Shown: piece by piece, positions 7,295 through 13,087 of the stretch | Numbering within the stretch: position 1 is the first letter of the stretch | Layout: the number at the start of each line of letters is the position of its first letter | DNA from: an uncultured Bacteroidota bacterium | GTDB taxonomy: Bacteria; Bacteroidota; Bacteroidia; UKL13-3 | Assembly: GCA_903850915.1 (NCBI GenBank) | Contig: CAINMV010000017.1 | Span: 1 to 64,000 of the forward strand | Length of the DNA: 64,000 nt | Reading direction: 5' to 3' | Translations under genes and position numbers: made by a program | The notes under the pieces: generated by a model | What the model saw: only the letters and a program-made list of their open reading frames with translations | Told to the model about the DNA's origin: nothing | Database searches by the model: none

Positions 7295-7335
7295 AAGTGA
7301 ATATTCGCTCACAAAGGTAAGTTAGCCATTCACTT
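7295..7335 (-). promoter_or_regulatory. Promoter with TetR-type operator for the 7274-to-2040 operon
   Basis: Read on the minus strand, a perfect Bacteroidota -7 box TACCTTTG lies at 7319-7312. Directly downstream, over the expected transcription start, is the imperfect palindrome AGTGAATATTCGCT (7296-7309), seven-base arms with one mismatch. This matches the AGTGAA-TTCACT style of AcrR/TetR operators. A third half-site, ATTCACTT (7328-7335), lies on the other side of the -7 box. A repressor bound here would cover the promoter. The cognate regulator is inferred to be the TetR gene at 6270-6860. Confidence 0.62.
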
Positions 7336-7711
7336 ATTAATGTTATGAATGTTACACAAGGATATGATATCTGTCATGTTTGTCTTTTTAAGGAGATTTC
7401 AAAATGTACTAAAAATCATCAGGTGCGGTGGGGAATTGGCTCTTTTGGGTTTTGCCTGTGTGTCGCCTTGTGTGAAGGGGCAAACCCCAAATGTGCCAAT
7501 GTGGGCAGGCTAAAATTATTTTTTAAAATGTGCGGTGGGAAAATTTTTTAAACCTTGCGTTGGTTTGAGTGTCGGCAAACTGGATAGGGTCTGTGTCGAG
7601 TTACAGCGAATTGTCAACCGAGTAAAGGTCGTCCGAGAGTTAGTTTGGAAGTCAAAAGTCCGGTCGTTTTGGTGTCCGCCCGATGGTTGCACTGTCGTCT
7701 TTTAGGCTTGC
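7320..7711. other. Non-coding stretch with hairpin and short repeats
   Basis: No convincing gene is seen here. The stretch contains a strong imperfect inverted repeat (arms 7436-7456 and 7479-7499, 21 bp with a few mismatches, 22-bp loop). It also has a direct repeat of GTGCGGTGGG (around 7423 and 7531) just outside that hairpin. From about 7545 to 7711 the base composition is richer in G and C than the neighbouring genes. The open frames here have no recognisable protein features. It may be the remains of another cassette next to the palindromic element at 7712. Confidence 0.5.
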
Positions 7712-7850
7712 TTATAACGGTTTCGGGCTTGGCGAAGGTGGCGATTTTCACCACAAATGTTGATGCGGAGAACCAAACTTTGATTAACCACAAATGTGTC
7801 TGCGGAACACTGAACCGCCACTTTTGCCAAACCCGTGTTAGCAGTAGTTG
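7712..7850 (-). repeat. Palindromic attC-like element A
   Basis: Imperfect inverted repeat just downstream of the Mg2+ ATPase stop. Outer core TTATAAC (7712-7718) faces GTTAGCA (7837-7843). Inner arms 7725-7743 and 7816-7834 pair over 19 positions, and the three that are not Watson-Crick are all G-T type. The centre contains two direct copies of an ACCACAAATG...TGCGGA unit. The whole element is clearly related, in the same orientation, to the one at 10491-10628. The fold resembles integron attC sites, though the R boxes do not fully match GTTRRRY. Small open frames across it are artefacts of the repeat. Confidence 0.65.
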
Positions 7851-7882
7851 TTATTACTCTCGTTAAATTATCACTTTCAAAT

Positions 7883-10402
7883 TTAAGCATTGTGAAACTT
7901 TTTAAAAAACCACACTTTCAATAAGTCTGCAGTAAGTATATATACTGCTACAATAGTTAGCATTGCTCCTAAGTTTAGAAATGGCAGAGGTGTCAAGCCA
8001 ATATCATTAGCAAATGGTAAATAAGGTAACCCAAGTGTCAATACTAATCCCACAATACTTAAAATGAAAAGATATTTACCGGGTTTGCTTTTGAAAAAGT
8101 TTTTGTGTGTTCTAATGATAAATAAAATAAACAACTCAGTTAAGATTGATTCAATAAACCAGCCCGTTTGAAATGCCGATTCTTTTACTTTTAAAACGTA
8201 TAAAAGTGTAAGGAAAGTTATTACATCAAATACGGAACTATGGATGCCGAATATTACCATGTAGTTGCGAATAAATTTCAAGTCCCATTTGCCTGGTCTG
8301 TCTAATTGTTCCTGGTCAACATTGTCAGAGGCAACTGTGAGATAAGGAAAATCGGTTATAAAATTCATCAATAAAATTTGTTTGGGCAACATGGGTAAAA
8401 ATGGCAATAGCAATGAGGCAATAGCCACGCTAAACATGTTTCCAAACGTAGAACCTGTGTTGATGAAAATGTATTTCAACGTATTTGCAAACGTTTTTCT
8501 TCCTTCCTTAATCCCATCTACCAAAACCATTAAATTTTTTTCCATCAATACAAAATCGGCTGCTTCTCTTGCAACGTCAACTGCATTCTCTACTGATATT
8601 CCCACATCCGCTGCGTTGATAGCGGAAACATCATTAATGCCATCGCCAATGTATGCAACAGTATATGATTTTCTTAGAGCCAATATGATTCTTTCCTTTT
8701 GTTGTGGCTCAACTTCTGCGAAAATATGCGTATGTCTTACCAAATGATTTAAGGCTTCCGGACTAGTTTTAAAAACTTCTGCACCAGTTAAAATTTTAGG
8801 ATTAGTAATTCCTATTTTTAAAGCAATGGATTGAGCAACGTTTTTATTGTCGCCAGTAATTATTTTTAAACCGACATTCAATTTATGCAGTTCGCTTATA
8901 GTTTGAACAATTCCATCTTTTATAGGGTCTTGCAGTAAAATGAAACCCGCAAATATCATTTCAGACTCATCACTTTTTTTGATAATGTTTACTCCAATAT
9001 TTTTATAACAAATCCCTATGGCTCGCAGTCCATCAAAGCCGTATTGTTCAAATCTTTTTTCTAATTCAGGTTTATGTAATTCAATATCTTCAATAGTATC
9101 ATTGTCTAATTTTATCTTGGAACAGATTTCAATTATTTGAGTAAATGCTCCTTTGGTAATTAGTATGTTTTCAGTTTCCGTTTTCACGGCAATACTTAAT
9201 CTTTTGCGAAGGAAATCATAGGGAATTTCACCTAATTTTTCGGGTAAACTTTTTGCTTCCAATTTTAAAAGTTTCAATGCATCATCAATGGGATTTGAAT
9301 AACCACTTTCAAATGAGGCATTCCAAAAAGCCAATTGCTTCACCAGTTCATTTTCTTGTCCTAAACCATTTACCAAGCCAACAATTTTAATACTCCCTTC
9401 CGTAATAGTTCCTGTTTTGTCGGTGCATAGCAGGTTTACTTCACCTAAATTCTGAATAGACGCTAACTTTTTTACGATTACTTTTTTTTCCAACATTCTT
9501 TTTGCACCGGCACTCATCGCAATGGTAGTAATTGCAGGCAGCAGTTCTGGTGCCATACCAACCGCTAATGCTAAGGCAAATAGTGCTGACTCTATCGGAC
9601 TTTTATGATTGATTAAATTGATAACCAAAATAAAAACAGAAAGCACTAAGGTGATTTTCATAAGAAAAAAACCAAAGTCTTTTATACCTTTTTCAAAAGT
9701 GGTTTCCACATTTTTGGATGCACTTTGAGCAATGCTTCCAAATATGGTATTGTTGCCTGTTTGTATCGCTAAGGCTTTTGCATCTCCACTCACAATATTT
9801 GTTCCTTCCCAAAGACAATTGATTCTTTTAGACAGTTCTGTGTTCTCTTCTAATTTCCCGGCTTGTTTTCTTACAGGATAAGATTCACCTGTTAGACTAG
9901 CCTCATTGGAATGTAACTCGTTACTCTCCAAAATCAGGCAGTCGGCTGGTATCATATCACCAGCTTTGAATAGAATAACATCACCTGGTACTAAGTTGGA
10001 AGAATCTATTGCTATAGTTTTATTATCTCTGATAACATTGCTTTTCAACGAAATCATTGATTGCAATTTTTCAACTACTCTGCTTGCATTTCTTTCTTGA
10101 AAAAAGCTTAGTAAACCTGTAGAAACTACGATAAAAAGTATGATAAAAACATCTGAAGTATCGCCAAGGAATGCAGAGAGTATAACTGCACCAATCAATA
10201 AAAGCATCAAAGGACTTTTAAATTGATTGATAAATAATTTTATATCTTTTTTGAAACGAGATTCAATTTTTTTATGATTGCCTGAATTACGCAAGAGGGT
10301 ATCTGCATCTTTTTGAGATAACCCTTTGTCAGAACTAGATAATTTCAGAAACCAATAATTGGTGTCAAATTGCCAAAATTTATTTTCAGTAGTTACTTGC
10401 AT
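7883..10402 (-). CDS. mgtA: Magnesium-translocating P-type ATPase (P3B)
   Basis: Inner-membrane ATP-driven importer of the MgtA/MgtB type. The 839-residue protein has the actuator motif Thr-Gly-Glu-Ser-Tyr-Pro-Val, the phosphorylation motif Asp-Lys-Thr-Gly-Thr with Asp328, the Lys-Gly-Ala motif of the nucleotide domain, and the hinge Gly-Asp-Gly-Ile-Asn-Asp. The Mg-ATPase-like Asn-Thr-Leu-Lys-Tyr-Ile segment follows, before the C-terminal helices. It is slightly shorter than enterobacterial MgtA. No Mg2+ riboswitch-like leader was seen. The gene stands alone between two related palindromic elements (7712-7850 and 10491-10628), the arrangement expected of a cassette. Confidence 0.92.
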   Translation of the reverse strand: MQVTTENKFWQFDTNYWFLKLSSSDKGLSQKDADTLLRNSGNHKKIESRFKKDIKLFINQFKSPLMLLLIGAVILSAFLGDTSDVFIILFIVVSTGLLSFFQERNASRVVEKLQSMISLKSNVIRDNKTIAIDSSNLVPGDVILFKAGDMIPADCLILESNELHSNEASLTGESYPVRKQAGKLEENTELSKRINCLWEGTNIVSGDAKALAIQTGNNTIFGSIAQSASKNVETTFEKGIKDFGFFLMKITLVLSVFILVINLINHKSPIESALFALALAVGMAPELLPAITTIAMSAGAKRMLEKKVIVKKLASIQNLGEVNLLCTDKTGTITEGSIKIVGLVNGLGQENELVKQLAFWNASFESGYSNPIDDALKLLKLEAKSLPEKLGEIPYDFLRKRLSIAVKTETENILITKGAFTQIIEICSKIKLDNDTIEDIELHKPELEKRFEQYGFDGLRAIGICYKNIGVNIIKKSDESEMIFAGFILLQDPIKDGIVQTISELHKLNVGLKIITGDNKNVAQSIALKIGITNPKILTGAEVFKTSPEALNHLVRHTHIFAEVEPQQKERIILALRKSYTVAYIGDGINDVSAINAADVGISVENAVDVAREAADFVLMEKNLMVLVDGIKEGRKTFANTLKYIFINTGSTFGNMFSVAIASLLLPFLPMLPKQILLMNFITDFPYLTVASDNVDQEQLDRPGKWDLKFIRNYMVIFGIHSSVFDVITFLTLLYVLKVKESAFQTGWFIESILTELFILFIIRTHKNFFKSKPGKYLFILSIVGLVLTLGLPYLPFANDIGLTPLPFLNLGAMLTIVAVYILTADLLKVWFFKKFHNA

Positions 10403-10490
10403 AAGGTTTGTTCTTTATTTTATTTGTCATTCACCATGATGCTTTCAAAGTAGCTATAATTCTTTATTGTTGTTCTGGTTCGTTACAATT

Positions 10491-10628
10491 ACTGCTAACG
10501 TTTTGCGGATTTGCGATGGGCGGGATTTTTACCACCAATGGTTATGCGGAGCACAAAACTTTCGGTTACCACTAAACTGTCTGCGGAGCACGAAACCCCA
10601 CCTATTGCAAATGTGCTGTTAGAAGTAG
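10491..10628 (-). repeat. Palindromic attC-like element B
   Basis: Second copy of the element family, ending 5 bp from the stop codon of the zincin gene. Outer arms ACTGCTAAC (10491-10499) and GTTAGAAGT (10618-10626) are inverted with one mismatch. Inner arms 10509-10524 and 10597-10612 pair at 13 of 16 positions, and the other three allow G-T pairing. The centre repeats the same two TGCGGAG-containing units as element A. Read on the minus strand, it ends in GTTAGCAGTAATT, the same string that occurs upstream of the zincin gene at 11480-11492. Confidence 0.65.
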
Positions 10629-10633
10629 TTTTT

Positions 10634-11464
10634 TTACCCACAACCTTCTTTCAATTTATTAATATCAAAGTCTTTAGGCACTGGAACAGTTTTTATAAAG
10701 TTGAGCCAGTCTGTTTCCAATTGTTGAATGGAGAAACCATAGATTGATTTAAAGTTATCAAAGCCACCATTCCAAAGCAATTTCATTTTTTCTACTCCGT
10801 ATTTCTCATACAAATATTTGAATATTCCAGCACTTTGTATATATGCTATTACATCACTTTTTTTCGCTTGGGAGTCGAAGCTGTTAACTAAACTGTCAAG
10901 AGGAAATAGCTTTTTTTGTTGAAGATAGTATGCATTTATTGAATACATCGGATTGTCATAAAAGCAATAGTTGTCGGTGTAAGTTGCACCACCTTCGTCT
11001 AATAAGCGATAATTGGTCAACCCCCAAGTTTCATAGGATATTAAGTGAAATATTTCGTGTTTGAATTGGGGACGGATATTTTGATTGTAAACAAAGAAAA
11101 CCAGGTCGTGTCCTTTAGCCGCACCACCTTTTATTTTGTAACCCATAACTTTCTGCATCTCTTCCTTGCTGTCAACTGCCAATAAATAAATTCCATTGTC
11201 ATAAGATGGGATATTCAATACAGATAGAATTTTACTGAAGGCAATATCCAATTCTTGTTCAATGTCGACAAGATGGTTTGCTGTATATGAACTGTCTTTA
11301 AAATAAATTCTAAACGATTTATAGTTCACTGAGGAAAGAAAAACAGAATCATTCCCAATAAAACCTAAAACATATGACGATGGTTGTCTGAATACAATTT
11401 GCTGAGAAAAGCTATCTTGAGAAATAGCAATCATGAAAAGTATTGTCAATATTAATTTTTTCAT
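10634..11464 (-). CDS. Secreted zincin-type metallopeptidase (peptidase MA-like)
   Basis: I place the start at the ATG complementary to 11462-11464, because it opens a good signal peptide (Met-Lys-Lys-Leu-Ile-Leu to Asp-Ser-Phe-Ser-Gln); the frame is open for 21 codons upstream. The 276-residue product has a zinc site His136-Glu137-Ile-Phe-His140 and a likely third ligand Glu157 in Leu-Leu-Asp-Glu-Gly-Gly, the gluzincin/peptidase MA layout. It is probably periplasmic or secreted and has no T9SS domain. Its stop is 5 bp from palindromic element B and its start is 20 bp from a core-site copy, so it looks like cassette cargo. The substrate is unknown. Confidence 0.78.
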   Translation of the reverse strand: MKKLILTILFMIAISQDSFSQQIVFRQPSSYVLGFIGNDSVFLSSVNYKSFRIYFKDSSYTANHLVDIEQELDIAFSKILSVLNIPSYDNGIYLLAVDSKEEMQKVMGYKIKGGAAKGHDLVFFVYNQNIRPQFKHEIFHLISYETWGLTNYRLLDEGGATYTDNYCFYDNPMYSINAYYLQQKKLFPLDSLVNSFDSQAKKSDVIAYIQSAGIFKYLYEKYGVEKMKLLWNGGFDNFKSIYGFSIQQLETDWLNFIKTVPVPKDFDINKLKEGCG

Positions 11465-11479
11465 TTTGTTGTCTTTTAA

Positions 11480-11590
11480 AATTACTGCTAACTTATTTAT
11501 ATCCCTGACAAAACCAGATATACACAACCATTTTGGGGTGGGTAACCCTGATTATGGTAAGGGGTTATATGCGAATCTATTCTTATATGT
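11480..11590 (-). other. Candidate attI-like site behind the recombinase remnant
   Basis: The gap between the recombinase remnant and the zincin gene holds, on the minus strand, GTTAGCAGTAATT (11492-11480). The same 13 bases occur at the boundary of element B (10499-10487). Only weak dyad symmetry is visible around it, for example ATATAACCCC near 11564-11573 against ATATCCCTGA near 11500, unlike the long palindromes at 7.8 and 10.5 kb. A simple site with a core next to the integrase gene is what an integron attI would be. The assignment is inference. Confidence 0.35.
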
Positions 11591-11813
11591 TTATATATCC
11601 AAATCGTCAAATGGAGTCTTTATCTTTTGTATGCATTTCATACTAACATGTGTGTAAATCTCTGTCGTTTTTACTGCTACTTTGCCCCAAAAGTTCCTGT
11701 ATATATCTTAAGTCTGTGCCCTACTCCAGAAGATGCGTGGCGTAACTATGCCTTAGCCAATGTAAACTAACCGGATTCTTGATTCCGGCTAATGCACAAG
11801 CCTTCTTTAAAAC
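11591..11813 (-). pseudogene. Tyrosine recombinase (integrase) C-terminal remnant
   Basis: On the minus strand from about 11813 the frame reads Lys-Lys-Ala-Cys-Ala-Leu-Ala-Gly-Ile-Lys, then the box II signature Leu-Arg-His-Ser-Tyr-Ala-Thr-His-Leu-Leu-Glu. A TAG at 11723-11721 follows, then Gly-Thr-Asp-Leu-Arg-Tyr-Ile-Gln-Glu-Leu-Leu-Gly. After a frameshift in the homopolymer at 11668-11672 it continues Thr-Thr-Glu-Ile-Tyr-Thr-His-Val (nucleophile Tyr at 11654-11656) to a stop at 11591 after Pro-Phe-Asp-Asp-Leu. The N-terminal two thirds are missing. The preserved end fits XerD-like and integron integrases equally; the part that separates them is lost. Confidence 0.85.
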
Positions 11814-11814
11814 T

Positions 11815-12423
11815 AATGCTAAACTGGCCGGTATAAAGAAACCAGATATTTCTATTCTTTCTGATGAGTTTTTGGCAGAAGTAAAAGGAATGAACGATAA
11901 GAACTTGGCGTTGGAACTCTTAAAGAAACTACTCAAAGATGAAATCAAGGTTCGTCAAAAAGTCAATTTGGTTCAATCGAAAAAGTTTTCTGAAATGTTA
12001 GAGAATGCAGTAAAGACTTACCAAAACAACTTAATTACGTCCGCCCAAATTATCGATGAGATGATTCGATTGGCTAAGGACATCAAAGGATCAAATAGAC
12101 GTTGAGAAGAGATGGGATTAGATTTTAGGGAGTATGTATTCTACACTGCACTGAAGGTAAACGATACATCTGTAGCCATATTGGGGGATGAGATATTGAG
12201 ACATATCGCTCGTGAATTGGTTGATACTGTTTAGAAAAATACCAGTATTGATTGGACGGTCAGAGAGAATGTACAAGCCAAAATGAGAATTGCCGTAAAG
12301 AAAATTCTTCGTAAACATGGGTATCCACCTGACATGGAATTGAAGGCAAGGGAAACCGTAAACGAACAAGCCAAACTACTTGCGAACGATTTCATCTCAA
12401 CGGATAACGAAACGGGTAATTGA
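11815..12423 (+). pseudogene. hsdR: Type I restriction enzyme R subunit (hsdR) C-terminal remnant
   Basis: The plus frame reads Leu-Ala-Gly-Ile-Lys-Lys-Pro-Asp-Ile-Ser, Phe-Leu-Ala-Glu-Val-Lys-Gly-Met, and Leu-Leu-Lys-Lys-Leu-Leu-Lys-Asp-Glu-Ile-Lys, all typical of the HsdR C-terminal region. A TGA at 12103-12105 interrupts it, but the same frame goes on with Glu-Glu-Met-Gly-Leu and a Phe-Tyr-Thr-Ala-Leu stretch. A TAG at 12232-12234 follows, then Ile-Asp-Trp-Thr-Val-Arg-Glu and Ile-Leu-Arg-Lys-His-Gly-Tyr-Pro-Pro-Asp to a stop at 12421-12423. The motor and nuclease domains are absent, and so are hsdM and hsdS, so it is not functional. It faces the recombinase remnant tail to tail at 11.8 kb. 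Confidence 0.88.
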
Positions 12424-12658: not shown

Positions 12659-12735
12659 TGGTCGGGGTGGCAGGATTCGAACCTACGACCTTCTGCTCCC
12701 AAAGCAGACGCGATACCGGGCTACGCTACACCCCG
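12659..12735 (-). tRNA. tRNA-Pro (anticodon UGG)
   Basis: The cloverleaf reads on the minus strand from 12735: acceptor CGGGGTG paired with its partner, anticodon stem around a TTTGGGA loop (anticodon TGG), and T-loop GGTTCGAATCC. The 3' CCA is encoded (complement of 12659-12661). It marks the boundary between the accessory region on the left and core genes on the right. tRNA genes are common integration sites, but no second copy of its 3' end was noticed in the window. Confidence 0.95.
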
Positions 12736-12816
12736 AAAATGTTTAATGTCGTTTTAATTTGACATAAAGGATATTTTAATCTTCGGTTTATTATCCTTCC
12801 CTTATTTATTCAAGTG

Positions 12817-12904
12817 CGGTGAGGGAGGGATTCGAACCCTCGATACCCTTTTGGAGTATGGCAGTTTAGCAAACTGCTACCTTCGGCCTCTCGGTCACCT
12901 CACC
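12817..12904 (-). tRNA. tRNA-Ser (anticodon GCU)
   Basis: Long-variable-arm tRNA read from 12904 on the minus strand. The acceptor is GGTGAGG/CCTCACC with discriminator G. The anticodon loop TTGCTAA gives GCT. The extra arm CATACTCC...GGGTATC is of class II size, and the T-loop GGTTCGAATCC is intact. CCA is not encoded. A TTG/TACTTTTG promoter lies just upstream. Confidence 0.95.
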
Positions 12905-12922
12905 TTGATTGTTTAGGGGGTG

Positions 12923-12953
12923 CAAAAGTAATTTTTTTATTTAAATAATGCAA
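12923..12953 (-). promoter_or_regulatory. Promoter of tRNA-Ser
   Basis: Minus-strand -7 box TACTTTTG (complement of 12923-12930) with a -33 TTG (complement of 12951-12953) 20 bp further upstream. This fits the Bacteroidota TTG...TAnnTTTG promoter. The box ends 18 bp before the tRNA 5' end. Confidence 0.65.
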
Positions 12954-12969
12954 CCTTTTTTTAAAATAA

Positions 12970-13001
12970 TTTGCAGGAATATAAATGCTTACCTACTTTT
13001 G
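12970..13001 (+). promoter_or_regulatory. Promoter of tRNA-His
   Basis: TTTG at 12970-12973 and TACTTTTG at 12994-13001 with 20 bp between, close to the phylum consensus (TTTG, about 19 bp, TAnnTTTG). The -7 box ends 11 bp before the mature tRNA start. Confidence 0.7.
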
Positions 13002-13012
13002 CACCACTAAAC

Positions 13013-13087
13013 GGCGGTTGTAGCTCAGTTGGTTAGAGCATCGGTTTGTGGTACCGAGGGTCGTGGGTTCGAGCCCCATCATCCGCC
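13013..13087 (+). tRNA. tRNA-His (anticodon GUG)
   Basis: Full cloverleaf with the extra 5' G of tRNA-His (G at 13013), D-loop AGCTCAGTTGGTTAGAGC, anticodon loop TTGTGGT (GTG) and T-loop GGTTCGAGCCC. The acceptor has one T-T mismatch. The 3' CCA appears only partly encoded, so the end is accurate to a base or two. A strong terminator follows. Confidence 0.94.

Follow-up and report, generated by a model that had tools for sequence, protein, structure and literature searches.

Comparative analysis of the window, i.e., the whole stretch of 64,000 nucleotides analyzed (contig CAINMV010000017.1 from an uncultured Bacteroidota bacterium), indicates that two similar elements on its minus strand, element A (7715-7840) and element B (10496-10621), are attC sites of an integron with a non-canonical integrase. 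We assign this reading a probability of approximately 0.93; it rests on comparative evidence, and no recombination was observed. By its organization, the system is an integron: an attI, single-gene cassettes in the same orientation, AAC and GTT ends and complementary cassette ends are all present. Two further integron criteria, i.e., an IntI-specific domain and membership in the IntI clade, are not met. A preliminary description, made from the sequence of the window alone, had proposed that the elements represent a folded single strand under selection, as in attC sites or structured RNA; our data support this proposal and, of the two possibilities, favor attC. The integrase remnant, the attI and the pairing of the outer bases with the other end of the cassette had been missed.

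The window contains a dying integron, in which attI and two cassettes remain, while nothing but a C-terminal fragment with a frameshift is left of the integrase. The integrase remnant (11597-11825, minus strand), identified by tblastn, represents the C-terminal region and is frameshifted into two reading frames; four family integrases matched it with 73-81% identity (amino acids ~271-322 at 11825-11670; E down to 1e-27), and the second frame lies at 11686-11594. No intact family integrase was found elsewhere in the window's genome, where the best match was a 160-bit XerD-like gene. The attI core GATATAAATAAGTTA (11489-11503, minus strand), which represents the insertion point of the first cassette, fits the core TATAANNNAGTTA found in relatives, and the window attI shares a 20-nt exact match with the attI of a genome of the same genus (G021). 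Cassette 1 (993 bp; 10499-11491, minus strand), as defined by its paired ends and a Pfam match, consists of a Peptidase_MA_2 gene and element B; its 5' end GTTAGCAGTAATTTTA and its 3' end (reverse complement GTTAGAAGTAGTTTTT) pair at 9 of 11 positions, and its reading frame (10634-11464, minus strand; ORF list) encodes a protein of the peptidase MA superfamily with approx. 276 amino acids from the ATG (PF13485, E = 1.3e-10). Cassette 2 (2781 bp; 7718-10498, minus strand), also defined by paired ends (5' GTTAGCAGTAATTGTA, 3' reverse complement GTTAGCAGTAGTTGTT; 9 of 10 positions paired), consists of a gene for an 839-amino-acid P-type cation-transporting ATPase (7883-10402, minus strand; PF00122, E = 2e-44; PF00689, E = 1e-20) and element A. 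A third cassette is represented by its start only (GTTATAAGCAAGCCTA...; approximately 7300-7717, minus strand); its 3' end and attC are missing, no sequence that would pair with its start as a matching 3' end was found in the window, and no open reading frame spans 7300-7717. The frameshifted integrase fragment, attI, two cassettes and the start of a third therefore define a decayed integron. An open reading frame on the plus strand (11779-12105) abuts the broken integrase and, as judged by eye, resembles a C-terminal fragment of the type I restriction enzyme HsdR; three tRNA genes lie beyond it (12662-13087).

Both elements are preceded by a gene on the minus strand and extend from TAAC to GTTA. 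A covariance model built from 61 homologues scored element A, the attC site of cassette 2, at 139.5 bits (E = 9e-27) and element B, the attC site of cassette 1, at 120.8 bits (E = 1e-22, with covariation as further support); these E-values are rough. The arms proposed in the preliminary description were recovered, with Watson-Crick pairs at 16 of 19 positions in element A (7725-7743 with 7816-7834) and at 13 of 16 positions in element B (10509-10524 with 10597-10612), as were the two internal TGCGGA units (at 7764 and 7801 in A, and at 10545 and 10582 in B). Over 145 bp, the two copies are 72% alike. The accompanying claim that all other arm positions are transitions that allow G-T pairing held only in part; all six non-Watson-Crick positions are indeed transitions, but they are not all G.T on one strand, since the plus strand of each element has two G.T exceptions and one C.A exception. 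A conserved AAAA/CTTC internal loop accounts for two of the three exceptions, which therefore do not represent free wobble variation. Sequence searches found the element in 55 of the 64 genomes of the family, with identities between genera of up to 98-99% (element A has 98% identical copies in other genera) and with matches that stop at the TAAC and GTTA ends, and the covariance model found sites in 63 of the 64 genomes (up to 44 per genome). Truncated copies were observed on two other contigs of the window's genome (L002, 1490-1586; L003, 1483-1526), one near an IS3-like transposase gene and one directly 3' of a gene for a DCC1-like thiol-disulfide oxidoreductase; these copies are probably relics of further cassettes.

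The preliminary description had named a lack of covariation in an alignment of many copies as the result that would refute selection on the fold. Among 61 homologues, covariation was clearly detected, far above shuffled and slid controls. Compensatory changes were found in 16 of 21 tested pairs, at a mean column identity of 45%, and 226 double-change cells were observed as compared to 82 in shuffled alignments (none of 500 was as high) and 24-48 when the partners were slid. Overall, 89.5% of the cells in the 21 pairs were paired (shuffled, 69.7%). The expectation for attC-type sites that the fold is conserved more than the sequence is thus met. When single sequences were folded, the minus strand of element A folded better than 200 of 200 shuffles (z = -2.9), whereas element B alone showed no significance as compared to shuffles (z of about 0 to -0.9); the case for the fold therefore rests on the homologue alignment. 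The 126-nt site consists of TAAC, an A, a 10-bp stem, a 4-nt loop, a 7-bp stem and a variable end of ~70 nt, followed by the returning strands, AAAAC and GTTA; its spacer is asymmetric (1 nt vs. 5 nt). AAC and GTT are invariant (61 of 61 homologues). Many sites fit the 7-nt consensus RYYYAAC / GTTRRRY (e.g., GTTAGGC, GTTATGC) and others deviate from it (e.g., GTTAGCA in the window); these were not counted systematically. With regard to bottom-strand recombination steered by extrahelical bases, the bottom strand was more stable in 43 of 61 sites (mean -20.2 vs. -18.9 kcal/mol) and the spacer is asymmetric, and extrahelical bases were not established.

In intact relatives, a single tyrosine recombinase gene is followed, approx. 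100 bp past its stop codon, by attI and then by cassettes in one orientation. The attI core TATAANNNAGTTA is located 43-151 nt after the integrase stop codon, with the first cassette directly behind it. Around 47 integrase loci, all 57 downstream sites showed the same orientation, with none in the opposite orientation, and one site was located upstream. A downstream site was detected at 24 of these 47 loci; for 20 of the other 23, the available downstream sequence was shorter than 1 kb or only slightly longer, and three loci (L070, L085, L101) showed no site despite longer downstream sequence. Sites also showed the same orientation within each of the 20 loci that were fetched. A complete genome (G062) contains four such loci, in which the attI sequences are near-identical up to GTTA and are then followed by a different cassette in each case. 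Another four contigs break off exactly at AGTT(A), which would fit variation of the next cassette from cell to cell; this reading is inferred. The XerA-like gene adjoins attI in every lineage examined, including those on plasmids. Upstream of the attI core (e.g., L082, L066, L070), a lineage-specific short motif appears to recur in direct, inverted and direct copies. These copies are possibly integrase binding sites; support from exact matches was weak, as a test for exact 7-nt repeats in attI showed only weak enrichment (2 and 3 of 37 vs. 0.1 and 0.2 expected).

The integrase itself differs from IntI. In the pairs measured, 96 residues separate the catalytic boxes as compared to 138 in IntI, reflecting the absence of an IntI-specific insert of about 42 residues, which was seen in three IntIs but in none of the aligned Bacteroidota integrases. 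The integrases scored 195-223 bits against the curated NCBI IntI model (TIGR02249), below its cut-off of 265 bits; NF040815 was the best-scoring family for two of the three integrases tested (221.7 and 226.7 bits; cut-off, 220). The closest solved structure was XerA (5hxy, 200 bits), followed by IntI4 (2a3v, 186 bits in two pieces). XerA is a chromosome-dimer resolvase that acts on dif. In a phylogenetic tree, 29 Bacteroidota integrases formed their own group with moderate support (87/77), and IntI (100/99) and XerC/D (100/99) were separate; IntI was represented in this tree by no more than three sequences, of which one is broken, and several branches were long. Judged from these sequences, the recombinase belongs to a separate XerA-like group outside IntI. 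The literature describes the IntI-specific additional domain as a defining and essential integron feature (PMC9668308). We found no described integron integrase that lacks this domain; our search covered open-licence papers only, and a description elsewhere is not excluded.

One alternative, which we consider very improbable, is that the sites are real attC sites moved by a canonical IntI encoded elsewhere in the genomes, with the XerA-like gene as a passenger. The use of folded attC sites is not known for integrases without the IntI insert (PMC8138268, PMC9668308), and one genome of the family (G005) does carry a canonical IntI above the cut-off. However, this IntI is the only one in 64 genomes and its reading frame is split in two, while sites are present in 63 of the 64, and it is the XerA-like gene that adjoins attI in all lineages examined. 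A canonical IntI was thus rejected as the driver in the family. The split gene is located at 1367-2378 of L064, and the covariance model found no convincing site on that contig.

The ends of each cassette are complementary, i.e., the bases that follow GTT at its start pair with the bases that precede AAC at its end. Among 45 cassettes, a mean of 6.7 of 10 positions paired; the corresponding means were 3.1 between both sides of a single site and 3.3 in random pairs. In a replication with further loci, drawn from named genomes as well as from the family and the phylum, at least 8 of 11 positions paired in 46 of 73 cassettes, a level reached by 3 of 117 comparisons inside a single site and by 1.6% of random pairs. 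For first cassettes, counted from attI, the ends paired in 20 of 30; reading of the sequences indicated that at least 3 of the misses were due to the script having used a wrong GTT. We rejected the idea that the outermost bases pair inside a single element, as these bases pair across the gene. A class 1 integron used as a control showed the same pattern over about 12 nt, and complementarity therefore marks integron cassettes in general; we had also considered long end complementarity as a novelty and rejected this on the basis of the same control. Across the cassettes, pairing position 11 was nearly always A against C, representing a fixed mismatch or bulge in an otherwise variable complementary stretch. 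Many cassettes carry a common leader like TAAAAGACGACAGTGCAACC between the complementary 5' end and the start codon.

The median length of 81 cassettes was 748 bp, and 74 of 79 genes were in the orientation of the site. Cargo was diverse; among 69 cassette proteins scanned, most Pfam families occurred in one protein only, and several proteins matched candidate anti-phage defence families. Comparisons between genomes indicated movement of whole cassettes. One cassette, which occupies a mid-array position among nine sites in one genome (G008) and lies directly at attI in another (G007), was 96% identical between the two, and this identity starts and stops at GTTA, exact to the base. A second cassette, common to two genera (93% identity), begins at GTTA in both, behind attI in one genus and behind an attC in the other.

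These boundaries bear on the possibility that the elements are miniature transposable elements (MITEs or IS-derived hairpins) that by chance sit beside genes, which we rate slightly below movement by a canonical IntI. Inverted-repeat arms, near-identical copies across genera in numbers of up to 44 per genome, and the IS3-like transposase near one partial copy (L002) are all compatible with such elements. Nevertheless, the copies are placed between single genes in one orientation, the mobile unit shared between genomes is a gene plus element bounded by GTTA and not the inverted repeat itself, the outermost bases have their pairing partners beyond the gene, at its far end, and not within the element, and the arms covary at low sequence identity. 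A structured RNA or a regulatory element in the 3' untranslated region appears less credible again. While covarying stems located 3' of genes would suit this explanation, an Rfam scan of the window yielded only the three tRNAs and no family match to the elements, and the pairs in the loop of the minus strand are A.C where those of the other DNA strand are G.T, with the plus strand being slightly more stable. It would also leave attI, the integrase, the exact movement boundaries and the pairing across the gene unexplained; we thus favor attC sites over a structured RNA because of the arrays in one orientation, the integrase and attI upstream of them, the cross-gene pairing of ends and movement with exact boundaries. 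Modules of the Xer/dif type (pdif modules) that host XerC and XerD would move are the least credible of all since, even though the recombinase is Xer-related and the attI cores are similar to one half of a dif-like site, 20 XerC/D control genes had no sites in the surrounding 312 kb, the sites are 126-nt covarying hairpins in one orientation and not short 28-bp sites in alternating orientation, and a dedicated integrase gene is located next to attI.

Integrons are usually described as mainly proteobacterial. In approx. 43 of the 64 genomes of the family, the family integrase stood out with >290 bits, usually once per genome, as compared to ≤175 bits for XerC/D-type genes. Across the phylum, the integrase family (E ≤ 1e-55) was found in 118 of 395 Bacteroidota genomes and in 77 of 171 genera; named carriers with downstream sites include Algoriphagus ornithinivorans, Flavobacterium aciduliphilum, Cyclobacterium, Winogradskyella ursingii and Algibacter onchidii. 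All 58 sites in the phylum-level genomes were in the orientation of the integrase, and several phylum-level integrase loci showed no site with this covariance model. Cassette arrays also occurred in genomes without a detected family integrase, including the window's genome. The integrase was also present on two Chryseobacterium plasmids, one of which carries at least 6 sites; a blastn search of the element DNA against plasmids found nothing. On one Chryseobacterium plasmid (L241, NZ_CP041688.1; 19299-23081), an IS110 transposase gene and a group II intron were observed inside the cassette array.

The attC reading places these loci beside several known systems. Like canonical integrons (e.g., class 1), they combine one integrase, an adjoining attI and single-gene cassettes in the same orientation with complementary cassette ends and folded sites that have AAC/GTT ends and two stems. 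Unlike canonical integrons, the Bacteroidota integrase lacks the insert of ~42 residues, forms its own group and is transcribed towards attI, and the Bacteroidota sites have an asymmetric spacer, an AAAA/CTTC loop and a long variable end. Transcription of the integrase towards attI, in the direction of the cassettes, is shared with Treponema integrons, which belong to another phylum and are described as having intI genes (PMC3607928). Archaeal integrons (PMC9668308) similarly lie outside the usual bacterial groups and consist of short genes arrayed with folded sites; their IntIs, however, retain the IntI-specific domain around patch III, which the Bacteroidota proteins do not. XerA and NF040815 (site-specific tyrosine recombinase/integron integrase) are the nearest structure and, for two of the three integrases tested, the top-scoring family, respectively; unlike XerA, the Bacteroidota genes adjoin cassette arrays and most have an extra N-terminal region.

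The evidence, all of it comparative, fits integron recombination step by step. By analogy with canonical integrons, the integrase would recognize the folded strand and exchange strands between the G and the TT of GTTA; circular gene cassettes, each composed of a single gene and, behind it, a 126-nt site with a single-strand fold, would be inserted at attI at GTT(A), and successive insertions may then build a row of cassettes in one orientation. Catalysis of this reaction by the recombinase, the choice of strand and present-day activity of the system are inferred. It is possible, although we hold this only tentatively and at somewhat less than even odds, that these loci represent a second, independently evolved integron lineage, in which a XerA-like recombinase gained the use of folded attC sites without the IntI-specific domain, a domain that would then not be required.

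Previous surveys had reported few integrons in this phylum; for Bacteroidetes, IntegronFinder 2.0 listed nothing more than an earlier integrase-only (In0) case and a single complete integron, from Salinibacter (PMC9024848). Bacteroidetes were also not covered by the clade-specific attC models published in 2021 (PMC8352920). Detection tools based on IntI and on proteobacterial attC sites would probably miss arrays such as those described here. Overall, these data suggest that an integron-type platform is present in roughly a third of the sampled Bacteroidota genomes (as judged by the integrase count), on both chromosomes and plasmids. If the role of the recombinase is confirmed, the IntI-specific domain would be unnecessary for the recombination of folded sites, and the question of integron origins would thereby become directly testable.
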